NCBI GenBank assembly: GCA_013202875.1
Contig: JABMRD010000104.1
Coordinates: forward strand, 1-44,344
DNA length: 44,344 nucleotides
Source: Actinomycetota bacterium
GTDB taxonomy: Bacteria > Actinomycetota > Humimicrobiia > Humimicrobiales > Humimicrobiaceae
Direction: 5' to 3'
Below the pieces are notes generated by a model. That model made no database searches. It was not told the origin of the DNA and saw nothing but the letters and a program-made list of their open reading frames with translations. The position numbers were made by a program, and so were the translations under genes. Positions 28,049-40,865 of the stretch are shown here, piece by piece (the first letter of the stretch is position 1; each line of letters begins with the position of its first letter).

Positions 28049-29332
28049 TTATATCAGCTGGCCCTCCGGGGTAAAACACATTTTTTCAAGCAAGGAAATT
28101 TGCTCAAAGATAGGATTGTCTTTCATATCTCGAAGCACTTGTTCCGAAACTTGGATCTCCTGTAGCTCCATAGTATTTTTAATTCTGACCACTCTGCATT
28201 CATTAGGATTAGATTGGTTACATGTTCTTATAGCTAACTGAATAGCTTCCTGATCGCTATTCGCCAAAATCGGGATTTTGGCTGGATCAAGAACTGACGC
28301 AGTTATCGCATTCGTGTACATAGAGGACAAGTTTATCTTATGATAACATCGTATTGTAGATATATCTGCCATACCAATTCCCACACCATTCCCGTGAGAT
28401 TCATCGGTAATGTCCAAGACAACAATCTTCTGAATAAGCGGAGCTTCAAAACCTTCCAGTAAACCTGACCCTGGACGCCCGGTTACGTTAGGATCCATTC
28501 CCTCGCCGCTAATATTTTTACCTATTTCCTCTACAATAAGAACATCTATCTTCGGCATTATAAGCCTGGGCATATACTTTTTCGCTAAGATCAATAACTC
28601 TCGATCACGCTGAATAATTGTGTTACTAGGAACTAGCTCAAGATCTAGGAGCTGTTTACAGGGGTTTTCCAAAATCCCTACACCAAAAAGGATCGGAGCT
28701 GCTTCTAAAATTAGTCCCGCCGCTTTCAGTAGGATAGTGGCCATTTGTTCAAAACCGCGAGAGTGGATGGCAGATGCACCATTATGATTACCCAATCCAA
28801 CAACCATCATTTTAAGCAGACCGCTCTCGTGATCTCCTTTAAAATCAGCATGAGGTTTGATCTTATTAATAACCACAATCCCATCTGACTCGAATGCGAT
28901 ACGATCACAATATATCGGCATACCATCTTCTAGACACCCAATCGTAACAGTATCCATTGAGGATCGAATAGGGCAACCTACGTTATCTGGTGTAATCCCA
29001 TAATCGACTATTACCTCTGTTTGTCCATTTGCAGTAGCGCCACCATGGCTCCCCATTGCCGGTACGATAAACGGAAGGGCACCGTAGTTTTTCAACACTT
29101 CTACGATGATTCGGGTGATCTCAACGATACGAACAATTCCCCGGCTTCCTGCTGTAAGGGCAATTTGCTTCCCTTCTAAATCTATTTGCGAAAGAAACTT
29201 GTTTAGTTGATCAGTGAACTTTCGTGTACTTTTTAGCTCAGGGGCATTAAAAAGTTGCCGAGCTTTAGCCATTTTAGGTATGTGTACATCCCTGTGTCCA
29301 TCTACTTGTATTTGAATATTTATTATATCCAT
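28049..29332 (-). CDS. LarA-like (DUF2088) protein, possible nickel-pincer epimerase
   Basis: This 427-aa protein resembles the lactate racemase LarA superfamily: ALTAGSRGI, PFIVPAMGSHGGATANG, VINKIKPHADFKG, and GLGNHNGASAIHSRGF. H96, H161, K174 and H190 fall at spacings close to the H108, H174, K184 and H200 of LarA, which handle substrate and hold the nickel-pincer cofactor. LarA relatives include racemases and a D-gluconate 2-epimerase, so next to sugar-acid genes an epimerase role is attractive but unproven. No maturation genes (larB, larC, larE) are in the window. It is the last gene of the minus-strand run. Confidence 0.7.
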   Translation of the reverse strand: MDIINIQIQVDGHRDVHIPKMAKARQLFNAPELKSTRKFTDQLNKFLSQIDLEGKQIALTAGSRGIVRIVEITRIIVEVLKNYGALPFIVPAMGSHGGATANGQTEVIVDYGITPDNVGCPIRSSMDTVTIGCLEDGMPIYCDRIAFESDGIVVINKIKPHADFKGDHESGLLKMMVVGLGNHNGASAIHSRGFEQMATILLKAAGLILEAAPILFGVGILENPCKQLLDLELVPSNTIIQRDRELLILAKKYMPRLIMPKIDVLIVEEIGKNISGEGMDPNVTGRPGSGLLEGFEAPLIQKIVVLDITDESHGNGVGIGMADISTIRCYHKINLSSMYTNAITASVLDPAKIPILANSDQEAIQLAIRTCNQSNPNECRVVRIKNTMELQEIQVSEQVLRDMKDNPIFEQISLLEKMCFTPEGQLI

Positions 29333-29408
29333 AACTGCGTTCCTATCTATTTAATCTTCTTGCGTCATCTCCCTTAATATTCATTTAATCGTCCCGATGA
29401 ACATTATT

Positions 29409-30182
29409 TCACCACCGTTCAAGTTCACAAGTAAGCCCTCCATCTACAAAAAGTTGGGCTCCTGTAATAAAGGAAGCTTCATCACTTGCTAGAAAGGCAA
29501 CAGCATAACCAACATCCTCCGGTGCCCCAATTCGCTTCATTATCTGACGTTCCTCTACCGCTTTTCGTTGGGCAGCAGGGTCCGGATAGGCATCAAAAAT
29601 CCCCTGGACTAATTCTGATAAAACCCATCCTGGAGAGACGTCGTTTACACGCACAACAGGTCCATAGTCGATTGCCATCTGCCTAGTAAGAGCGGAAACA
29701 GCTCCTTTGGCTGCATCGTAAGCCGCACAACCGTTGACCGAAAGCTTTGCATGAACAGATGATATATTGATAATCACCCCTTTCCCTTTTTTCAGCATAT
29801 AGGGAATCACATATTTGGAACAAAGAAACACCCCTTTTAGATCTACATTCATACAGCGATCCCAATCTTCCAAGGTGGTTTCGGTAACAGTATGGTAACC
29901 ACCTATCCCGGCGTTGTTCACAAGGATATCCAAGCTACCGAATTGTTCATTGGTTTCTTTCATTAACTCTTTTACCTGGCTCTCTTCTGATACGTCACAT
30001 TTAATCCAAATTGCTTCTCCACCACTTTTTCTAATCTTCTGTACCACCCTGTTCCCTGCATCTTCATCCCGTCCAGAGACAACAATTCTTGCTCCTTCCT
30101 GTGCTAAGATCATAGAAATTCCTTGGCCTATACCTTTGTTACCACCTGTAACAATAGCAACTTCTTTGTTATTAAACCTCAT
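29409..30182 (-). CDS. SDR-family dehydrogenase, probably for a sugar acid or polyol
   Basis: This is a classical short-chain dehydrogenase of 257 aa. The NAD(P)-binding motif is VTGGNKGIGQG (12-21), followed by LVNNAGIGG (88-95). The catalytic set is S141/S142 in INISSVHAKLS and Y155 with K159 in YDAAKGA. The C-terminal GAQLFVDGGL is usual. In this cluster the most likely role is oxidation or reduction of a hydroxyl group on the imported sugar acid, as in gluconate 5-dehydrogenase or KduD relatives. Its start overlaps the end of the M24 gene by 11 bp. Confidence 0.9.
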   Translation of the reverse strand: MRFNNKEVAIVTGGNKGIGQGISMILAQEGARIVVSGRDEDAGNRVVQKIRKSGGEAIWIKCDVSEESQVKELMKETNEQFGSLDILVNNAGIGGYHTVTETTLEDWDRCMNVDLKGVFLCSKYVIPYMLKKGKGVIINISSVHAKLSVNGCAAYDAAKGAVSALTRQMAIDYGPVVRVNDVSPGWVLSELVQGIFDAYPDPAAQRKAVEERQIMKRIGAPEDVGYAVAFLASDEASFITGAQLFVDGGLTCELERW

Positions 30183-31392
30183 CCTTTTCTCCTTTCACCA
30201 TGGGCAAACTTTTCCCAAGAACCTTACCACTCCTTTTCGTGACCAGGACATTAACCTCTTGCCGTACCCCCCCTACCCCAGGTATGTAAACTCCCGGCTC
30301 ACAGGAATGAACCATTCCCGCTTTTAACACTAACTGCGCTCCTGGCATTAAATAAGGTTCACCGTCATGGTAAGCTAGACCTACTCCATGTCCAAGGATA
30401 TGAACAAAGTATTCACCATATCCATCATTTCGAATACTTTCACGCGCTACCTGGTCTATTTCACCAGCACTAACTCCTTCCTTGATCGCCGCCAAAGCCG
30501 TAGCTTGTGAACGTTCGATTACAGACATTATCTCTATCTGCTTATCCGAGGCAGTACCACTTACAATCGTTTTTGTCAAATCACACCAAAAACCGTCCGC
30601 GACTAACCCAAATTCGATCATTACGAAGTCTCCATTACGAATTATTCGGTCTGTAGTTACCATTCCGGCAAACCAGGCAGCTTCAGTTCTTTTCGGGCCA
30701 CTTGTAATCTGTGTAACAGCCCTCCCGAATTTAACTCTGCCTTTATAACCAGAAGCGGTTCGTAAAATGCAAGATTCTATTTCAGCAGCTATATCAATCT
30801 CTCGTATCCCTGGCTCTGATGCTAACTCTACAAATCTCTCAATACCAATCCAGCCCAGTTCATTCGCCATCTCAATCTTCTCTACTTCCTCTTTAGTTTT
30901 TACCCGTCGCATCTCGCCGATAATTCCCGTTACCTCTACTAAACGTTCGGTTCGGAAGACTTTTCTCAGCATCTTCCTGGTGTTAGCCCCGGGAGGCATT
31001 AGTTCTCCACAACACAGGTTAGGAGCCATAACATCAGCATCCAAGTCAGTTCCTATAACAGATCCGTCAGGGATCCGGTCTTTTTGCTTTAAATCTTCCA
31101 GAATACTCCCTATGGTACTGTACGGATCACCATCCTCTAGCTTGACCCAACCAAAACGTCTTACTTCTGAAATTATGCCTTTATCTGGGTCATCCTGGTC
31201 TCCATAAGGAGCTATTATGCATGAATTCCCTTCAGCAGGTACAAAAAGAAATGAAAATCCGTTTCTGGGCCAATACAAACTGAATAACACCAGGTTTTCA
31301 GGTAATTTCAATATCGTTGCAGCTATTCCCTTTGCATTCATTTTTTCCTGTAATTGGTTCACTCTTGATATTGTATCCTTCACTTTCAACAA
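30172..31392 (-). CDS. M24-family (pita-bread fold) hydrolase, creatinase/Xaa-Pro peptidase-like
   Basis: This 406-aa protein has a creatinase-type N-terminal domain and an M24 domain. The five metal-ligand positions are E260 (MIEFGLVADG), D271 (WCDLTKT), H335 (ILGHGVGLAYHDG), E365 (SCEPGVYIPG) and E379 (GVRQEVN). The first is usually Asp. M24 proteins with changed ligands include metal-free hydrolases of the creatinase kind, so the substrate may be an amide other than a peptide. The start is TTG with AAGGGGA a few bases upstream. It lies between the ABC importer and the SDR. Confidence 0.8.
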   Translation of the reverse strand: MLKVKDTISRVNQLQEKMNAKGIAATILKLPENLVLFSLYWPRNGFSFLFVPAEGNSCIIAPYGDQDDPDKGIISEVRRFGWVKLEDGDPYSTIGSILEDLKQKDRIPDGSVIGTDLDADVMAPNLCCGELMPPGANTRKMLRKVFRTERLVEVTGIIGEMRRVKTKEEVEKIEMANELGWIGIERFVELASEPGIREIDIAAEIESCILRTASGYKGRVKFGRAVTQITSGPKRTEAAWFAGMVTTDRIIRNGDFVMIEFGLVADGFWCDLTKTIVSGTASDKQIEIMSVIERSQATALAAIKEGVSAGEIDQVARESIRNDGYGEYFVHILGHGVGLAYHDGEPYLMPGAQLVLKAGMVHSCEPGVYIPGVGGVRQEVNVLVTKRSGKVLGKSLPMVKGEKDEV

Positions 31393-31703
31393 ATCCCCTT
31401 ATTTCTGTATATGCTCTTGACTGATAATTTATTAGCAAAATTAGTATAAATCACTCATTTAAAAAAATCTTATATATTTTATAAAACTATTCTATCTCTC
31501 TGAAACCTATTTTAAGGTGCTACCACCACCAATTCCATTTCTTTATAGCATTCTATTTCATCCTTAACTACCTTTACAATCTTCTTAAAGTTATGATACA
31601 TAAATAAAAGACTTTCGCTACATTTCTTCTGTTATTTTATTATAATTGTTCAAATACCACGTTGTGTATCTAGGCTACTACACGTATAATTTAGTTGTTA
31701 TTC
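31393..31703. other. Intergenic gap splitting the catabolic run
   Basis: These 311 bases lie between the permease stop and the M24 start. They are AT-rich. I see no gene and no clean terminator, so the M24-SDR-LarA genes may have their own promoter here, but I cannot point to one. Confidence 0.4.
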
Positions 31704-32672
31704 TCAGACAAGTTTACTCGTTTTTCTATGTTCACTTATGGCATCGAGTAAAATAGCCAGAATCAGGGTTACCCCTGTTACCAGGTTTTGCCAATAGATA
31801 CCGACCCCCAAGAGATTCAAAGAATTGGAAAGAACTCCCATAAACATTGCACCCAGAAAAGCTCCAAACACTGTTCCTTCTCCACCTTTTAAACTCGCAC
31901 CACCTATAATTGCTGCAGTGATAACCCTCAACTCCATCCCTTGGCCTACCGTAACCGAGGCTGAACCAAATCGAGCTGTGACTAAAATACCAGAAAACCC
32001 TGCTAGAAAAGATACCAGGATATAGTTCACGATTTTAACCAGAGCAACATTGATACCGTTGAGCTTGGCAGCTATTTCATTCCCGCCGACATAATATCCC
32101 TGACGCATAAAGCGGGAATTTCTGAGAATGGTATCGCCTACAAGGACTATAACAAAAAGCAGAATAATCGGGTACTGTACTCCCCATAGCTTCCCCTGGC
32201 CGATTATTTCAAACTCCATTGGTAGGTTCAACACTGCCTTTCCTTTGGCTATAACCAAGACCAGCCCTCTCACAGCCATTAACATACCTAAAGTCGTGAT
32301 GAATGGATTAAGCCCCACTTTAGCAATAAGCACTCCATTCACAAATCCTACCATTACGGCTGATAAAAGACCTATTAAAATGGAGAAAACTACTGGTATA
32401 CCGACATTAAGTGAAAGCCCCGTTGCGACACCTGCGAGAGCAAGTGTTGAACCGACTGAAAGATCCAGCCCACCTGAAATCAGGACAATTACCATTCCGG
32501 TGGTTATAAGCGCTTCTACAGAAAGACCCATGAAGATAGCTTCCATATTTCGCCAGCTCAAAAAATGAGGTGACATAATTGACATAAACAATCCTATCAA
32601 CAAAATTACTATAATCAAAATCGATTCTCGGAAAGAACTAATAGCTTTCCCTATTGATTTAATACTGTTCAC
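31704..32672 (-). CDS. Ribose-type (CUT2) sugar ABC permease
   Basis: This is an RbsC-like permease of 322 aa with about ten hydrophobic segments. Typical stretches are GMVIVLISGGLDLSVGSTLALAG, VGLNPFITTLGMLMAVRGL, NEIAAKLNGINV and AAIIGGASLKGGEGTVFGAFLG, the last being the ATPase contact loop. The start overlaps the end of the ATPase gene by 14 bp. CUT2 importers carry monosaccharides and related compounds such as sugar acids, polyols or autoinducer-2. The neighbours point to a sugar acid. Confidence 0.93.
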   Translation of the reverse strand: MNSIKSIGKAISSFRESILIIVILLIGLFMSIMSPHFLSWRNMEAIFMGLSVEALITTGMVIVLISGGLDLSVGSTLALAGVATGLSLNVGIPVVFSILIGLLSAVMVGFVNGVLIAKVGLNPFITTLGMLMAVRGLVLVIAKGKAVLNLPMEFEIIGQGKLWGVQYPIILLFVIVLVGDTILRNSRFMRQGYYVGGNEIAAKLNGINVALVKIVNYILVSFLAGFSGILVTARFGSASVTVGQGMELRVITAAIIGGASLKGGEGTVFGAFLGAMFMGVLSNSLNLLGVGIYWQNLVTGVTLILAILLDAISEHRKTSKLV

Positions 32673-34194
32673 TTTTAACTACCCTCTTTGAATTTGGATC
32701 AATACCTGCCGCGTAAGATATGATTGTCTCTTCCGAAAAATCTTTCCGAGACACCTCTCCAGTGATTTTCCCCTGCCGCATCACTAAAACCCGATCGCAG
32801 AGACCAATAATTTCTGGAAGGTCGGAAGAAATTACTATTACCCCTTTCCCCTGTGCAGAATATTGCCGAATCTTTTCATAAATTTCCGAACGAGCACCTA
32901 CATCAATTCCGCGGGTAGGTTCGTCCAGGATAATGACGTGTGGTTTTATTCCCAACCACGTAGAGAGAAGGCATTTCTGTTGATTTCCTCCAGATAGATT
33001 CATTACCTTCTGATTAATAGATGGTGTCAGGATGCGGTACTCATTTTTAAGATGCTCGGCATAGCGATCGATCTTTTTTTTATCGATAATGTCAATTAGA
33101 CGACGGAAATTTTTTAACGAAGGAGCAATCACATTATCTTTTATTGTGGATCTCAGGTACAGGCCTAGCTTTATTCTGTCCTCTGTCAAATAGGAGATCC
33201 CGTTGTTAATCGCATCTGCAGGAGAGTGTATTTTGCTCTCTTTACCGTTTATAAATATTTTTCCTTTATCGCACTGATAATAACCAAAAATTGTCAAAGC
33301 CAGATCCGTTCGTCCAGCTCCGATAAGCCCATAAAACCCAAGAATCTCCCCCTTTTTCAAACTGAAGTTTATATCCTCAAAGCATCCCTTTTTCGAGAAT
33401 TTCTCCACCTTGAAGAAGGGTTTGTTTTCAACTATGTGTTTATCGGAACCTGATCCATACAAATCTTTTATCTCCCGCCCAACCATCATGGATATTAGAT
33501 CGTTCTCCGTCACATGCTTTTTGGCCTTGGTATCGATATGCCGACCATCACGCATCACCATTACACGGTCGGCAATTTCAAAAACTTCAGCAAGTTTATG
33601 CGTGATGTAGATAAAGGAAAGACCTTCTTTTTTCAGTTTGTAAATGTTTTCAAAAAGTAATTTGATCCCTTTTTCTGTAAGGGAGCTTGTGGGTTCATCA
33701 AGACAAAGCACTTTAGGATTGGCAGAAATTGCTTTAAGTATCTCTAACATCTGCTGATTCTCTATGGAGAGATTTTTCGCCAGCATTTTCGGATTAAATT
33801 CCAGATTGAATTTTTTCAAAAGCTGATCCGTTTCCAGATAAAGGTTTTTCCAGCGGATCTGGTTTAAAAGGCTTACCGGCTGCCTATTCATAAAAATATT
33901 TTCGGCTATAGAGATACTCCCCACTATCGAGAGTTCCTGATACACAACGCCCACACCCATGCACATGGCATCATAAGCTGAATGAAATTGGTACTCCTTA
34001 CCCCCGAGCACAATACGTCCACTGTCGGACTTAAGAACTCCCCCTATCATTTTTATCAGTGTTGATTTTCCTGCGCCGTTCTCACCCAAAAGCGCTAATA
34101 CTTCCCCTTCGTTAAGCCCAAAAGAAACTTTATCAACCGCAAGCACACCGGGAAACGTCTTTGTTAGGTCTTCTACTCGTATTATTTCATTCAT
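32659..34194 (-). CDS. Ribose-type (CUT2) sugar ABC ATPase, two nucleotide domains
   Basis: This is an RbsA/MglA-like fused ATPase of 511 aa. In the first domain Walker A is LLGENGAGKSTLIKM, the signature is LSIENQQ and Walker B is VLCLDEPTSSL. The second domain has the degenerate Walker A usual for this family (GFYGLIGAGRTDL), a full LSGGNQQK signature and VIILDEPTRGID. Both halves therefore match the normal CUT2 asymmetry. It follows the binding-protein gene after a strong hairpin (34212-34247), which probably lowers its expression relative to the binding protein. Confidence 0.95.
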   Translation of the reverse strand: MNEIIRVEDLTKTFPGVLAVDKVSFGLNEGEVLALLGENGAGKSTLIKMIGGVLKSDSGRIVLGGKEYQFHSAYDAMCMGVGVVYQELSIVGSISIAENIFMNRQPVSLLNQIRWKNLYLETDQLLKKFNLEFNPKMLAKNLSIENQQMLEILKAISANPKVLCLDEPTSSLTEKGIKLLFENIYKLKKEGLSFIYITHKLAEVFEIADRVMVMRDGRHIDTKAKKHVTENDLISMMVGREIKDLYGSGSDKHIVENKPFFKVEKFSKKGCFEDINFSLKKGEILGFYGLIGAGRTDLALTIFGYYQCDKGKIFINGKESKIHSPADAINNGISYLTEDRIKLGLYLRSTIKDNVIAPSLKNFRRLIDIIDKKKIDRYAEHLKNEYRILTPSINQKVMNLSGGNQQKCLLSTWLGIKPHVIILDEPTRGIDVGARSEIYEKIRQYSAQGKGVIVISSDLPEIIGLCDRVLVMRQGKITGEVSRKDFSEETIISYAAGIDPNSKRVVKSEQY

Positions 34195-34211
34195 AGCGTA
34201 TTATCTCCAGA

Positions 34212-34247
34212 GACAAAAGCTCCCTATATAATGAGGGAGCCTTTGTC
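34212..34247 (-). promoter_or_regulatory. Hairpin between binding-protein and ATPase genes
   Basis: GACAAA plus GCTCCCT pairs with AGGGAGC plus TTTGTC: 13 bp, one A-C mismatch and an 8-base loop. There is no T run after it on the minus strand. It resembles the stem-loops that protect the binding-protein mRNA and limit read-through in ABC sugar operons. Confidence 0.7.
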
Positions 34248-34256
34248 AAACAGTAT

Positions 34257-35357
34257 CTATTTTGCATACATCTCATTTGCTTCTAAATAATAATCTACAT
34301 TGCTTTTGTCGATATAATTGGGGGGAAGATAGATTAGGTCTGGCTCAACCACAGCATTGGCAGCCTCATTGTCAGATGCTAAAGATGGCCTGTAGGTATT
34401 ACGTGAGATTAAGGTTAACATTGACCAGTACATCATGGAAACGTCATTTTGTGCGACTGTACCGGTTAAAACACCTTCTTTAATCTTCTCCAGTATATCA
34501 GAGTTCCTGTCCATACCAATAATCTTCACCTTGCCGACCATATCCATTTCTTCCACCGCCATGATACCTCCAATCGCGGCGGTTGAATCACATCCCACAA
34601 ACCCGCTCAGGTCAGGAAAGCGTACAAGAATATCCTTTGCGGTTTGAATTGCTTTTATAGTATCAGCTCCAGTATCCCCGACTGCAACAACGCTTATTCC
34701 AGGATATTCATCAAAAGCTTTACGATAACCCTCTTCGCGAATATCCCACTGATCGTACCCTGGAATAGTAAGAACCGCTACCTTACCACTTCCTCCTAGT
34801 GCTTCCGCTAACTTTGTCCCTCCGAGATAACCCAGATCTTGCCCATAAGAACCTATATAGGCTATCCGTTTTGACCCTGGTTGATCTCCTATGATGACAA
34901 CTACAGGAATCCCAGCGTCTATTGCTTTATCTATGGAAGGATCAAGACTAGGATCTACGCCGAAAAGACAGATTCCTTTTGGGTTTTTTGCGATCGCTTG
35001 GTCCATCGTAGCAACGGTTGCAGGAATATCAAATTCGGCAGGCCCCATAATGGTAGTTTTTACGCCGAACATCTCTCCGAGCTTTGTCCATTCATACTTG
35101 TGCGCGTTGAAATACTCAATGTTTGATATACATAGGACAAAGATATATTCATCCTCAGAGGAAACACCACTCACAAGGGGATTGCTGGTTTTTACTTCTT
35201 CTGCAGGTGCTGCTTCTTCTGCAGGTGCTGCTTCTTCTGCAGGTGCTGCTTCTTCTGCTACTGGCTCTGCAGTCTCTTTACAACCAGACAATATAGTAAA
35301 AACACCAACTATCATTATTACTAAAACAAACATTAACACAAATTTAACTTTTGACAT
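34257..35357 (-). CDS. Sugar-binding lipoprotein of the CUT2 importer
   Basis: This is an RbsB-type binding protein of 366 aa. The signal peptide ends in a lipobox (FTILSGC, lipid on C26), so it is tethered outside the membrane. An acidic linker with three EEAAPA units follows (three identical 18-bp repeats). Ligand-domain stretches include YIFVLCISNIEYFNAHKYEW, IPVVVIIGDQPG, DLGYLGGTKLAEAL and GFVGCDSTAAIGGIMA. AAGGAGG precedes the ATG. It leads the ABC genes. The ligand cannot be named. Confidence 0.92.
   Translation of the reverse strand: MSKVKFVLMFVLVIMIVGVFTILSGCKETAEPVAEEAAPAEEAAPAEEAAPAEEVKTSNPLVSGVSSEDEYIFVLCISNIEYFNAHKYEWTKLGEMFGVKTTIMGPAEFDIPATVATMDQAIAKNPKGICLFGVDPSLDPSIDKAIDAGIPVVVIIGDQPGSKRIAYIGSYGQDLGYLGGTKLAEALGGSGKVAVLTIPGYDQWDIREEGYRKAFDEYPGISVVAVGDTGADTIKAIQTAKDILVRFPDLSGFVGCDSTAAIGGIMAVEEMDMVGKVKIIGMDRNSDILEKIKEGVLTGTVAQNDVSMMYWSMLTLISRNTYRPSLASDNEAANAVVEPDLIYLPPNYIDKSNVDYYLEANEMYAK
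35203..35256 (-). repeat. Three 18-bp tandem repeats in the lipoprotein linker
   Basis: GCAGGTGCTGCTTCTTCT occurs three times without change. In frame it gives the EEAAPA units of the linker between lipid anchor and sugar-binding domain. The unit is a multiple of three, so copy changes only alter linker length. Confidence 0.9.
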
Positions 35358-35417
35358 CTCAAACTTACCTCCTTATAATATTTTTGTTTCTTTGACTTTT
35401 TTGTTAAAATTATTCTG

Positions 35418-35476
35418 TGAGATTTGTTCGTGATTAGGCTACCCTTCAAAACAGCAGCGTTCTCGAACAAATCTCA
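35418..35476. repeat. Perfect 13-bp inverted repeat upstream of the binding-protein gene
   Basis: TGAGATTTGTTCG (35418-35430) and CGAACAAATCTCA (35464-35476) are exact complements around a 33-base loop. The structure lies between the HpcH aldolase gene and the binding-protein gene. On the minus strand no T run follows it, so it may be an RNA processing or stability element, or a looped operator. Confidence 0.6.
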
Positions 35477-35549
35477 TTTTTCCCACATTAAAATCACCCC
35501 CTTAGCAATTATAGATAATTTATCTTTCACCTCCTATCGATTTTTTTTA

Positions 35550-36317
35550 TTATTGTTTGCATAGTTCTACTGCTTTTTTGCATGATTCAAAAAAGATTCC
35601 AATATCGACTGAATAACAGAGGTAACGAACTCCAATCTCCCGCCATTTATCAGAATCAGTTTTATTTTCCACAAAGGTTCCCACATAGATTCCTTTGCTC
35701 ATGCTAAAATCAATTATGAAACGCATCTTTTCTATAACTTTAGGGTGATCCGTACGACCCGGTACCCCCAGTGCTTGAGACAGATCGTAGGGCCCGATAA
35801 ATATAATATCAATACCTGGCACATTTAAAATCGACTCCAAGTTATTTATCGCTTTCTCCCCTTCAAGCTGAAGGATTATAATTGTCTCGTTAGCCTCACT
35901 GAAGTATTGAAATCGATCCATGGAAGAGTAGTCCGCAGCTCGGACATAACGACAGACTCCTCTCATCCCGTCGGGAAAAAATTTCGCGGCTTCTATCGCC
36001 CTGTTTGCATCTTCAGCACAGGTAATTTGAGGGACCTCGATTCCTCCGGCGCCAATATCCAACACTTCTCCTATATAGTTCGTCAACGATTCCTTGACTC
36101 TAACAATAGGGAAAAGACCGCTGATCTGAGCCGCCCGAATTAAATTTTGGGTCGACCGAATTGAATTAGGCCCATGTTCCAGATCAATGATTACAAAATC
36201 AAACCCTGCATACCCGATAGCTTCAATCAGAGCAGGGTCTTCTGTTTTAGAAAAGGGACCCCAAACTGGTCCGTTCTTTAGCTTTTTACGAAATAATCGT
36301 ATTTCTTTGGTCAACAT
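35550..36317 (-). CDS. HpcH/HpaI-family 2-keto-3-deoxy acid aldolase
   Basis: This is a class II (metal-dependent) aldolase that splits 2-keto-3-deoxy sugar acids or related hydroxy-keto acids to pyruvate plus an aldehyde. From ATG 36317 the key residues are H48 (IIDLEHGPNS), R73 (PIVRVKES), and the metal ligands E152 (LQLEGEKA) and D178 (FIGPYDLSQALG). The start at 36317 has GGAGG 10 bases upstream. An ATG at 36362 would overlap the kinase gene. With the KDPG aldolase nearby, the cluster has two unrelated pyruvate-yielding aldolases, so it may handle more than one acid. Confidence 0.88.
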   Translation of the reverse strand: MLTKEIRLFRKKLKNGPVWGPFSKTEDPALIEAIGYAGFDFVIIDLEHGPNSIRSTQNLIRAAQISGLFPIVRVKESLTNYIGEVLDIGAGGIEVPQITCAEDANRAIEAAKFFPDGMRGVCRYVRAADYSSMDRFQYFSEANETIIILQLEGEKAINNLESILNVPGIDIIFIGPYDLSQALGVPGRTDHPKVIEKMRFIIDFSMSKGIYVGTFVENKTDSDKWREIGVRYLCYSVDIGIFFESCKKAVELCKQ

Positions 36318-36333
36318 CTCAATATAACCTCCA

Positions 36334-37362
36334 TTAACGTTGTACACGGCCAGATCCGCCATTTTTTAAAAGATTCTGCACTTCTTTAAGAGAAGTAAGA
36401 GGGAGATCTCCCGGTATCGAGTGCTTAAGACAGGAAGTTGCCACCGCAAAATTGAGAGCCTCCTGTTCCGATTTCAGCATGTTCAATCCATAAATCAAGC
36501 CGGCAGCAAAAGCATCTCCACCACCGACACGATCCACGATATCAGTAATCTCGTATTTCTGGGAAATGTAAAACATGTCTCCCGTGTTAAGAACTGCAGA
36601 CCAGCCATTATAATCAGCACTGTGTGACTCTCGCATTGTTAAAGCGATTTTTTTCAAATTAGGATAATTCTCCACGACCTTTTCAGTTAGAATTCGGTAT
36701 TTTTCTGCATTGAGGTTGCCAGATTCCACATCCATATCCATCTGGATTCCCAGGGATTTCTGACAATCCTCCTCATTACCTATCGCTATATCGACTAGCT
36801 GTGCCATTTTACTCATTACCTCAGACGCACTTTTACCATACTTCCACAATTTTTTTCTGAAGTTTAGGTCGAGAGATACAGTAAGTCCTTTTTTTTTAGC
36901 TTGTTTTACTGCTTCCAAGCTTAAGTTAGCAGCTGACACAGAAATAGCCGGTGTAATGCCTGTTATATGAAACCATACTGCGTCTTCAAAGATTGTCTGC
37001 CAATCAAAGTCCTCAGCTTTTGACTGGCTTATTGCTGAATAAGAACGATCGTATATAACCAGGGAAGGCCTCTGATTGGCTCCTCCTTCTAGAAAGTACA
37101 CACCTATCCTATCTCCCTGCCGGAGTATATAAGATGTATCAACACCATGCCTTTGAAGCTCCATTACACAGGCATCTCCTATAGGATTGTCAGGGACTGC
37201 GGAAACAAAAGCCGCTTCAAGACCCAGCCTGGATAACCCGACCGCCACATTAGCTTCACCTCCTCCAAAGCTTGCCTCCAACAAGTTAGTCTGAAAAAAC
37301 CTTTCATGCCCCGGAGCCTTCAACCGCAACATAATCTCTCCTAATGTAATAAACTTTCCCAT
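36334..37362 (-). CDS. kdgK: 2-keto-3-deoxygluconate kinase (PfkB family)
   Basis: KdgK phosphorylates 2-keto-3-deoxygluconate to KDPG, the substrate of the aldolase encoded just upstream. The PfkB features are [16 protein letters not shown] near residue 35, the sugar-site stretch [23 protein letters not shown], and the ATP/catalytic motif [12 protein letters not shown] with base D283. Opening with [11 protein letters not shown] is usual for KdgK. It starts 14 bp after the aldolase gene, and the pair forms the core of a modified Entner-Doudoroff route. Confidence 0.9.
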
Positions 37363-37376
37363 TTATACCTCACCTC

Positions 37377-38333
37377 TTATTTCTGAACTAAATGGATGGC
37401 AAAACCAGCTATTTCTTCTTCCAGGTAAACCGCGGCCAATTTGCCATTCTTTGTTTTTTTCGTCTCTTCCCGTATTTGAAATCCTCTTCGTCCTAGATAT
37501 GAAATAGCCAGGGAAATTCGATTGGTTCTCACTGCTATATGACCGTGTGAGCCTAAATACAGTTTCTTCATTATTTCGATGCTTGTTCCACTGAATATCG
37601 ATGAATTCCCGACTTTGCTTAAAAACCCGAAAAGATCCTTGAATCGATCCGCCCCTTCAGCAGCGTGTTTTTCACTTTTGCTATTAATTCCGATATGAGC
37701 AAATTCAAATCCCAATACTATTTTTACAGCTTCTTCCGTAAGTTCCGTAATTTTTTGAAATTCTCCTGAAGAAATTAATTCAGATTTGACCATCCAACTA
37801 CCGCCACAAGCTAAGACGTTACCGACTGAAAGATAATCACAAATATTAGTCTGGTTGATGCCACCTGTAGGTATAAAGAGAATATCTCCATATGCTGCTG
37901 CAACCGCTTTAATAGCCTTTATGCCTCCCGAAGCCTCTGCTGGGAAATATTTTAATACCTTTAACCCACGCTCCAAACCTTGTTCAATTTCAGAAGGGGA
38001 GTTAACGCCAGGAAAAATTGGTATGTCTTCCGCAATACAATAATCTACCACCTTCGGGTTAAATCCTGGCGTTACAATAAAGCTGGCTCCTGCATTGATA
38101 GCATTGCGAACATTTTTCACACAAAGAACCGTACCTGCCCCCACCAGCATATTGGGGAAATTACTCACTATCCGTTTTATTGATTCTTTAGCAGCGTTGG
38201 TTCGGAAGGTTATTTCCGCCACTGGCAACCCTCCTCTTATGAGAGCCTGCGCCAGTTTTATGGCTTTCTCAGCATCATCGATCTTAATAACCGGAATAAT
38301 TCCTAAACTACCTATCGTATCTTTTATTTCCAT
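37377..38333 (-). CDS. KDPG/KHG aldolase fused to a VOC-like domain
   Basis: Residues 1-205 are a class I KDPG aldolase (Eda/KdgA): general base E40 in PVAEITFRT, Schiff-base K128 in VLKYFPAEASGG, and phosphate-binding FIPTGGINQTN. It cleaves KDPG to pyruvate and glyceraldehyde-3-phosphate. Residues 208-318 form an added half resembling a vicinal-oxygen-chelate (glyoxalase-like) domain, from FAHIGINSKSE to HIAVRTNRISLAISYLG. Most Eda proteins stop near 210. AAGGAGA precedes the ATG. The tail may bind a ligand or metal. Confidence 0.87.
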   Translation of the reverse strand: MEIKDTIGSLGIIPVIKIDDAEKAIKLAQALIRGGLPVAEITFRTNAAKESIKRIVSNFPNMLVGAGTVLCVKNVRNAINAGASFIVTPGFNPKVVDYCIAEDIPIFPGVNSPSEIEQGLERGLKVLKYFPAEASGGIKAIKAVAAAYGDILFIPTGGINQTNICDYLSVGNVLACGGSWMVKSELISSGEFQKITELTEEAVKIVLGFEFAHIGINSKSEKHAAEGADRFKDLFGFLSKVGNSSIFSGTSIEIMKKLYLGSHGHIAVRTNRISLAISYLGRRGFQIREETKKTKNGKLAAVYLEEEIAGFAIHLVQK

Positions 38334-38388
38334 AAGTCTCCTTCCTAAATTGCATTAGCCACCTTGGTAAGTATTTTTAGTCACCAAA

Positions 38389-39066
38389 CTAAATCCTGCC
38401 GTACTTATTCAATAAATCATCCATTGTTGCACCTGCGAGGATGTCCTTCCTTATTTTTCTTTCCTTTTCAGCCTGTTCCTTAGCTACAGGGAAAACCTTC
38501 TCCAGTGCTTCATAAGGAACAACGACAACTCCTATCTCATCACCCACAATCAAGTCCCCAGGATTTACAACTACTCCGCCACACACTATGGTGGTATTTA
38601 CTTCAATAGGCTCCCTTCTTTTTGAATAAGCCGTATGTGAGGCCCTCGGAGTAACTACTTTCGAATAAATCGGAAAACCGAGCATTTTCGCCTCATCAGT
38701 ATCCCTGCAACTTCCATCTATAACTGCTCCAACTATCCCTGCGTTTCGTGCGAGTCCCGACATAAGCCCTCCCCATATTGAAGTTTCCGTTTCACCAAAC
38801 GCGTCAACAACAATAACATCACCCGGTTTTGCAACTTCAAAAATATCAAGAGGATCTACCAAGTCGCCCGGTGAAATCTTTACTGTAATAGCCGGACCTA
38901 CAATCTTCTTATCCGCAGCACGCGATTTAATATAGTGCTTCATAACGTTATCTCTTTCCATGGCGTCTCCAACTACACATGATAAAGAGATAACGTTCTC
39001 CAGTTTTCTAAAAGGCTTAATCTTACTTTCATCAATGTCTGGTCTCGATTTAATTATTTTTTTCAA
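38389..39066 (-). CDS. RraA-family protein (HMG/CHA aldolase-like)
   Basis: The protein has the RraA fold, with metal-dependent aldolase/decarboxylase residues R123-D124 (in the longer numbering, GSCRDTDE) and the preceding GGLMSGLARNAGIVGAVIDG glycine-rich motif. In sugar-acid clusters such proteins are thought to split or decarboxylate 4-hydroxy-2-keto acids, not to control RNase E. I chose the TTG at 39066, because GAGGAG (39073-39078) is 6 bases from it but directly abuts the TTG at 39072. A perfect palindrome (39093-39109) lies just upstream. Confidence 0.82.
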   Translation of the reverse strand: MKKIIKSRPDIDESKIKPFRKLENVISLSCVVGDAMERDNVMKHYIKSRAADKKIVGPAITVKISPGDLVDPLDIFEVAKPGDVIVVDAFGETETSIWGGLMSGLARNAGIVGAVIDGSCRDTDEAKMLGFPIYSKVVTPRASHTAYSKRREPIEVNTTIVCGGVVVNPGDLIVGDEIGVVVVPYEALEKVFPVAKEQAEKERKIRKDILAGATMDDLLNKYGRI

Positions 39067-39092
39067 TCCCAACTCCTCAAGTAATGAATGAT

Positions 39093-39109
39093 ATATTACA
39101 ATGTAATAT
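39093..39109. promoter_or_regulatory. Palindromic operator candidate before the RraA-like gene
   Basis: ATATTACAATGTAATAT is a perfect 17-bp palindrome. With one more base it contains the 11-mer TATATTACAAT that also lies in the gntR leader (40891-40901). It is the best candidate for a site of the cluster's own GntR regulator. Confidence 0.5.
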
Positions 39110-39156
39110 TAGTTTTGACACCAACCCATCTTTTTCCATTTCCTTTGTTACCTTAC

Positions 39157-40137
39157 TTACGGTTTCACTAAGTTAATCGGGGTCTGACCTAGAAGCACAG
39201 CTTTAACATTATTGGCAGCTGCATACCTACATTCCTTAAGTGATGCCTCCGAAACATAAGATGCATGTGGAGTAAAAAAGCAATTATCTAGTTTAAAAAG
39301 GGGATTCATATCCGGAGACCACTTTTCCATTTTCATTGGCTCTTCCTCAGGATCATCGAGAGCCGCCCCCATTATCCAACCTTCGGTTAGAGCTTTATAG
39401 AGCGCCTTATTATCAACGCACTTTCCCCGGGAAACACAAACTAGATAAGCATCATTCCTCATCATCTTAAGGGCATTCTCGTCTATTATATGATGTGTTG
39501 CTTCTGTGTATGGCGTGAGAACATTTATCACGTTGGAGCGATGTAAAAGGTCTATTAATTCTACTTTTTTCACTCCTTGGGTCGCCATAAAGCTCTCGGA
39601 AATATAAGGATCATACGCAATGACTCGAAATCCGAAATTCCATATTTTTCTCGCTATGTTCTGACCTACTCTACCGAAACCGATAAGCCCATAACTTGAA
39701 TCTCTCATTCTTAGAATGGGACCTCTCCAATCTTGCCATCTGTAACTGCCCTGTCTTATTTTGGCGTCATAAAACGGAATATTTCTAATAAGCATAAAAG
39801 AAAATGCAATAGCATGGTCCGACACTTCATCCAGACAATAATCAGGCACATTTGTAACTATAATGTTATGTTCATAGGCTGCTTTAATATCAACAATATC
39901 CATACCCATGCCATACCGTGCTATTATTTTACATTTCTCAAGCTTTTCTATGGTTGATCTTGTAATCTTCGCATATTGCTGAAGGATCGCGTCTGCATCT
40001 TTTACGAGCTCCCCCAAACCCTCTCCTGTATTGCATTTAAGACCAATAACTTCAGCACCTATAGGTTCCAGCACGCTTTTTTCAATCTCATTATCAGGAT
40101 AATCGTAGTCGCTTATATAAACTTTATACTTTGCCAT
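39157..40137 (-). CDS. D-isomer-specific 2-hydroxyacid dehydrogenase
   Basis: This is a 326-aa NAD-dependent enzyme of the phosphoglycerate/glyoxylate reductase kind. The Rossmann motif is GLIGFGRVGQNIA (G153, G155, G158). The catalytic set is R237 (VSRGKCVD), the Glu in DDPEEEP (264-266) and H291 (FFTPHASYVSEA). It lacks the C-terminal ACT domain of long SerA proteins. In the cluster it could interconvert a 2-keto and a 2-hydroxy acid. It follows gntR after 35 bp, with AAGGAG before the ATG. Confidence 0.9.
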   Translation of the reverse strand: MAKYKVYISDYDYPDNEIEKSVLEPIGAEVIGLKCNTGEGLGELVKDADAILQQYAKITRSTIEKLEKCKIIARYGMGMDIVDIKAAYEHNIIVTNVPDYCLDEVSDHAIAFSFMLIRNIPFYDAKIRQGSYRWQDWRGPILRMRDSSYGLIGFGRVGQNIARKIWNFGFRVIAYDPYISESFMATQGVKKVELIDLLHRSNVINVLTPYTEATHHIIDENALKMMRNDAYLVCVSRGKCVDNKALYKALTEGWIMGAALDDPEEEPMKMEKWSPDMNPLFKLDNCFFTPHASYVSEASLKECRYAAANNVKAVLLGQTPINLVKP

Positions 40138-40172
40138 TTATTTAACTCCTTACAAAAAAACATCCCGCAGTC

Positions 40173-40865
40173 TCATTTATCTTCGTCAACTATTAACTTT
40201 TTATAAGCTTCGAGTGCATCCCCGATATGTCTCCTCATTAAAAGCTCGGCTAACTCAGAATCTTTTCTTTTTATAGCGCTCAACAAAGCAGCGTGATATT
40301 TAATCCCTATTTCTGGACCTATGCTTTTACTTAACAGGGCATGGTGCATTCTAAGTATCTCATTAAGAACTGAACTTATCTTTTTTACAAAGATATTTTT
40401 TGTCCCTTTCGCGATAACATCGTGAAAATTAAAATCTGCAATATAGAACTTCGAAATATCTCGAACGGATTTTTTCATTTCTTTATAGTAATATTGAAGC
40501 TTATCATATTCTTCCTCGGAATAATTTTGTACAAACAGAGCAACGTTACCTGATTCTAAATAAATTCTGACCTCAAGAAGTGAAATAAAATCTTTCTTAT
40601 CGAGAAGGATGAGTGGTGCAAGAGAACTCATATACCCGGCAGCATCGATGTTTGCAACAAACGTGCCGGCTCCCTGTCTTTTCGTAAGCAGTCCTTGAGC
40701 CACTAACTGATCCAAGGCTTGCCGTACAGATACACGGCTGACACCAAGCTCCCGACATAGCTCTTTTTCAGTCATTATTTTAGCGTTTGGCACCCACTGC
40801 TTTGTTTTGATTTTTTCTACAATATAATTGTAGACACTCTCTCCAACAGTTTGTCCACTTTTCAT
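40173..40865 (-). CDS. GntR/FadR-family (FCD) regulator of the sugar-acid cluster
   Basis: This 230-aa regulator has an N-terminal winged helix ([21 protein letters not shown], then [13 protein letters not shown]) and a C-terminal FCD ligand domain with the likely metal or acid-binding residues in [13 protein letters not shown], the MHH of [10 protein letters not shown] and [16 protein letters not shown] regulators usually answer to organic or sugar acids. It heads the minus-strand run and probably controls the genes from here to the ABC importer. AAAGGA precedes the ATG. Confidence 0.92.

Follow-up and report, generated by a model that had tools for sequence, protein, structure and literature searches.

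A group 22 protein of the LarA superfamily, predicted to be a nickel-pincer-dependent sugar-acid C2-epimerase, in an actinomycetotal gene cluster

Nickel-pincer enzymes were discovered recently, and for most of their families no substrate is known. A superfamily study from 2020 arranged LarA homologues in 25 groups, with 13 assayed (PMC7583248). One of these relatives, GntE (LarAH19/LarAH20), epimerizes D-gluconate at C2 (PMC7583248), as a first-pass annotation of the DNA studied here had pointed out, and a loop signature of E, V after the second catalytic His typifies GntE, groups 18-20 (PMC11770544). In LarASp and LarABw, which are single-histidine homologues with a proposed link to carbohydrates (9Q3J, 9Q2U), Asn replaces the second catalytic His (PMC12611868). 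Group 22 is absent from activity Table 1 of the 2020 study (PMC7583248), whose supplementary tables may hold a context note, and no protein under that number is among those of a 2024 study (PMC11770544), which is in agreement with the earlier description of the family as poorly characterized. Here we assume that the NCBIfam name “group 22” follows the 2020 numbering. A literature search for a named group 22 enzyme found none, nor was a demonstrated substrate found in the literature for the corresponding NCBIfam family, NF052515. To our knowledge, no group 22 enzyme has been assayed.

The window, i.e., the whole stretch of 44,344 nucleotides that was analyzed, carries an open reading frame at the coordinates first annotated, which gave no strand; it runs from 29332 to 28049 on the minus strand, starts with ATG, and encodes 427 amino acids. 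Over its full length the protein passes the curated equivalog cut-off of NF052515 (nickel pincer cofactor-dependent isomerase, group 22), scoring 509 bits against a cut-off of 400 and covering profile positions 1 to 391 of 392; it also has the conserved residues of the family, and nothing excludes membership. Group 22 is the sole NCBIfam model above its cut-off, and identity as a lactate racemase was rejected, as NF033504 is absent from the matches. The protein is a newly found member of a recognized, uncharacterized family that is known from sequence alone. Pfam Lar_N (PF09861) reaches 22.1 bits against a gathering cut-off of 23.3, which many other group 22 members pass, and there is a weak Pfam match to DUF362. 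Searching the PDB with the single protein (phmmer) gave nothing meaningful; the best sequence-profile match there, to the malate racemase Mar2 (6D6Z), is weak (E 0.39), and Mar2 belongs to a clearly different family. The AlphaFold model (pLDDT 95.2, pTM 0.91) has the two-domain fold of LarA, and all 19 PDB structures matching it at E ≤ 0.001 are of the LarA family (TM 0.41 to 0.55), including LarA, the LarA of Isosphaera, Mar2, T. maritima GntE2 (4NAR), and the single-histidine homologues. Most of these matches cover nearly the whole chain with a high rmsd, of which domain opening is a possible source. The profile score and a model that matches LarA-family structures only at this threshold bear out the initial reading of the protein as a LarA-like nickel-pincer family member.

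The residues H96, H161, K174, and H190 and the motifs GSHGGAT (94 to 100) and KPHADFKG (159 to 166) lie where the first-pass annotation had placed them. The LarA-like spacing that it had described is close rather than identical (65/13/16 here versus 66/10/16 in LarA), the stretch from the second His to the Lys being three residues longer. A profile of 52 relatives was compared with 27 canonical LarAs (hhalign, 96% probability, E 1.7e-9); in this alignment, and in its global version too, H96 corresponds to LarA H108, H161 to H174, K174 to K184, H190 to H200, and R64 to R75, a cofactor/substrate contact. A chance spacing of His and Lys is ruled out because none of the four residues varies across the 105 aligned group 22 sequences, in which R64 is invariant too. 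The protein has equivalents of both catalytic histidines, the tether Lys, the nickel-ligand His, and R75 of Lactobacillus plantarum LarA (5HUQ, 6C1W) as well as its fold, at about 15 to 16% identity in structure alignments. It differs from LarA in the three-residue insertion and in having no equivalent of D72, a cofactor contact; the alignment has a gap at this point of group 22, with mostly (V/A)GSR there. Going by the alignment, this is a family-wide difference and not a loss in the window protein. D72 is present in LarA and the single-histidine homologues and is not stated to be universal. The C-terminal substrate residues of LarA had no sequence-based mapping onto group 22. Unlike LarASp and LarABw, with which it shares the fold and the proposed carbohydrate link, group 22 retains the second catalytic His. 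GntE has in common with the window protein the LarA superfamily and a proposed sugar-acid C2 inversion, yet it is a separate family by sequence; A162 and D163, not E and V, follow the second His in the window protein, which rules out GntE as a family label. The window protein may work like GntE in the proposed sense without being a GntE by loop signature.

Eleven further genes, several of them overlapping, lie on the same strand in an array that begins with a GntR/FCD regulator (40865) and ends at the group 22 gene:

28049..29332, minus strand: group 22 LarA-like protein, predicted nickel-pincer-dependent sugar-acid C2-epimerase (NF052515, invariant residues, LarA fold)
29409..30182, minus strand: SDR oxidoreductase, 76 bp upstream of the group 22 gene
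30172..31392, minus strand: M24 (creatinase/prolidase-like) protein (PF00557), overlapping the SDR gene
31704..32672, minus strand: ribose/arabinose-type ABC transporter permease
32659..34194, minus strand: ribose/arabinose-type ABC transporter ATPase
34257..35357, minus strand: periplasmic sugar-binding protein of an ABC transporter (PF13407, allose/rhizopine-type matches)
35550..36362, minus strand: HpcH/HpaI-type aldolase (PF03328), nearest to 2-dehydro-3-deoxyglucarate aldolase, below cut-off
36334..37362, minus strand: PfkB kinase, 2-keto-3-deoxygluconate-kinase-like (kinase part of NF041633 and KDG/KDGal kinase models, below cut-off)
37377..38333, minus strand: KDPG/KHG aldolase (TIGR01182, 252 bits against a cut-off of 156)
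38389..39072, minus strand: RraA-like aldolase/decarboxylase family protein (PF03737), 50% identical to its Marinovum neighbor
39157..40137, minus strand: D-2-hydroxyacid dehydrogenase, GhrB/PGDH type (PF02826), 47% identical to its Marinovum neighbor
40173..40865, minus strand: GntR/FCD regulator, head of the array (PF00392 and PF07729)

The cluster reads as one for uptake and breakdown of a sugar acid via a 2-keto-3-deoxy intermediate; an aldonate C2-epimerase fits into it, and the substrate is not fixed by it. GhrB-type dehydrogenases can act on 2-ketoaldonates, an activity that would pair naturally with a C2-epimerase. The SDR is 33% identical to the mannonate-oxidoreductase-type SDR that adjoins group 22 in Paenibacillus. 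The M24 gene sits inside this operon without an obvious role there, and the open reading frame of the KDPG aldolase is 318 amino acids long, with the family match covering the first ~206 and the C-terminal ~110 unexplained. The G+C content of the cluster (window positions 28049 to 40865) is 41%, versus 35% in the window's first 28 kb, and a group 22 gene was found in none of 34 searched genomes of the same genus or family; this suggests, short of proof, that the cluster was gained horizontally.

Relatives of the protein were retrieved by an alignment-based scan of genome contigs; a single-sequence scan returned none. The closest one found (54% identity) is on plasmid pMaD2 of Marinovum algicola, in a cluster that shares with the window an RraA protein (50% identity), a 2-hydroxyacid dehydrogenase (47%), and a KDPG aldolase (33%) and has in addition larB, larE, larC, and a KDG-type (KDGal) kinase that belongs to another family. 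In the tree, the window protein forms a sub-clade with this Marinovum locus (L042) and a third member (L059), the locus of which showed no clear pathway, separate from a Bacillales gluconate sub-clade. The gene context is clearest in Bacillales. In 27 of the fetched loci, group 22 lies beside both an SDR close to D-mannonate oxidoreductase (PRK08277) and an FGGY kinase, the latter nearest to gluconokinase and below the cut-off of that model; uxaC, larE, larB, larC, and 6-phosphogluconate dehydrogenase are often added (such clusters include L043, L044, L057, L063, L079, L083, and L103). The simplest reading of these loci is a route from glucuronate via fructuronate to mannonate, followed by C2 epimerization to gluconate and phosphorylation, and this gene context suggests that proteins of the Bacillales sub-clade are D-mannonate to D-gluconate epimerases. 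A strong match to the mannonate dehydratase UxuA is missing in 11 of the 25 genomes with the Bacillales cluster, and the clusters point to a D-mannonate to D-gluconate route that bypasses UxuA. The substrate of the window protein need not be gluconate, because it belongs to a different sub-clade and has A162-D163 after the second His where the gluconate sub-clade has T-A.

Other group 22 members adjoin UxaA-type altronate dehydratases. On a Haladaptatus plasmid (L159, 6938-10921, plus strand), a group 22 gene annotated as DUF362 precedes genes for a four-carbon acid sugar kinase and PdxA, an arrangement that suggests tetronate epimerization, for which erythronate/threonate would be the obvious C2 pair. 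In 12 loci, one of them L117 (11245-14410, plus strand), a dehydratase of ~737 amino acids from the IlvD/Edd family lies beside group 22; it has no named NCBIfam model above cut-off, and in L117 it is followed by a 316-amino-acid protein without a Pfam match. Group 22-like genes on plasmids of Haloferax gibbonsii and Haloarcula marismortui (L160, L161) adjoin LUD-domain (lactate-utilization-like) genes. The sugar-acid setting proposed at first pass is thus found in the window cluster and in the loci of relatives. Instead of the incoming sugar acid, the substrate could be a small 2-hydroxy acid (glycerate, tartronate, or lactate-like) that the HpcH or RraA aldolases and the 2-hydroxyacid dehydrogenase produce further down the pathway. 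The HpcH aldolase and GhrB-type dehydrogenase of the window, the two haloarchaeal relatives next to LUD-domain genes, and the preference of some LarA homologues for glycerate (PMC11770544) are in its favor; we consider it unlikely, as the commonest contexts of relatives are those of C6 or C4 sugar acids (uxaC, mannonate oxidoreductase, gluconokinase, UxaA, four-carbon acid sugar kinase).

No dehydratase was recognized in either the window cluster or the Marinovum cluster. Since no UxaA-type dehydratase was found in this genome and just one IlvD/Edd gene, the path from an epimerase to KDG has a gap. One guess is that the cluster handles a 3-deoxyaldonate, hence needing no dehydratase. Another is that the protein uses the nickel-pincer nucleotide (NPN) for a reaction other than inversion at C2, for example, a hydride-assisted dehydration or a redox isomerization, and so supplies the dehydratase that the cluster lacks. 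The three-residue insertion and the loss of D72 relative to LarA would suit such a change of reaction as well. Against this, both catalytic histidines are retained, as inversion would require; many relatives have an adjoining dehydratase (UxaA, IlvD), and dehydration there does not need the LarA-like protein; and the search of this genome for dehydratases was confined to the UxaA and IlvD/Edd types. We find a reaction without inversion rather improbable, and its particular form in which group 22 converts the sugar acid directly to the 2-keto-3-deoxy acid in place of the missing dehydratase distinctly so.

The reading that we prefer, a C2-epimerase, depends on the nickel-pincer cofactor, and absence of the maturation genes from the genome had been named as grounds for giving it up. 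All three are present above cut-off, larB on one contig (C100) and larC and larE as neighbors on another (C161). Their presence alone is weak evidence, because the genome also encodes a LarA of the malate-racemase type (383 bits to Mar2 6D6Z and 498 bits to the LarAH6 model, which has a cut-off of 500), for which larB, larC, and larE could solely exist. The gene for this second LarA (C44, 1483-2724, plus strand) comes directly after an open reading frame resembling malic enzyme, and the two likely form a D-/L-malate route.

Better evidence comes from the relatives. In 35 of 80 loci from named genomes, larB, larC, or larE lies within 10 kb of the group 22 gene, and in 27 all three do; the sample leans to Bacillales and close matches, so that these counts are not independent events. 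Such linkage is far above positional chance, and the lar-linked loci are spread over several separate clades of the tree. All 50 genomes of relatives that were tested have LarB above cut-off; 33 of them lack a strong Lar_N protein or canonical LarA and show weak group 22-type matches or none. Judged by sequence, the lar linkage and the co-occurrence with LarB would decide for cofactor use. Among 199 genomes near that of the window, larC is present in 20 of the 21 with a full group 22 gene versus 111 of the 178 without (p about 0.001, ignoring shared ancestry); co-occurrence with larC was set aside as stand-alone evidence, because many genomes carry larC without any LarA. That the protein has the LarA fold without using NPN, as a DUF362-like relative might, and that the nearby lar genes of other genomes serve other proteins is highly improbable: the weak DUF362 match, the DUF362 annotation of haloarchaeal relatives, and a second LarA that could use the cofactor in this genome are outweighed by the invariance of the Lys and His that occupy the cofactor positions, by the many relatives whose clusters include lar genes, and by LarB, which all 33 genomes lacking another strong LarA still have.

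The window protein is thus probably an NPN isomerase of LarA superfamily group 22, a distant relative of lactate racemase, and is predicted to be a sugar-acid C2-epimerase; the nickel-pincer epimerase interpretation made at first pass is supported. From the observed family, fold, conserved residues, maturation genes, and gene context, a mechanism can be proposed by analogy with LarA. NPN, made by LarB, LarE, and LarC, would probably be tethered to K174, with the nickel held by H190, and H96 and H161 would alternate as general base and acid. In a LarA-like proton-coupled hydride transfer, the C2 hydride would leave to NPN and return on the other face, so that C2 is inverted. Most likely, an aldonate-type sugar acid serves as the substrate and would be imported by the neighboring ABC transporter. 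In an order of steps that we infer, the 2-hydroxyacid dehydrogenase and/or the SDR would carry out redox reactions, and the C2 epimer would feed the 2-keto-3-deoxy-aldonate kinase and KDPG aldolase to give pyruvate and triose phosphate.

The evidence ties group 22, which occurs in bacteria and haloarchaea, to the NPN cofactor and to sugar-acid breakdown. From it we predict that the Bacillales protein is a D-mannonate to D-gluconate epimerase, which might stand in for mannonate dehydratase, and that the Haladaptatus protein epimerizes a tetronate; both predictions are testable with known co-expression systems.
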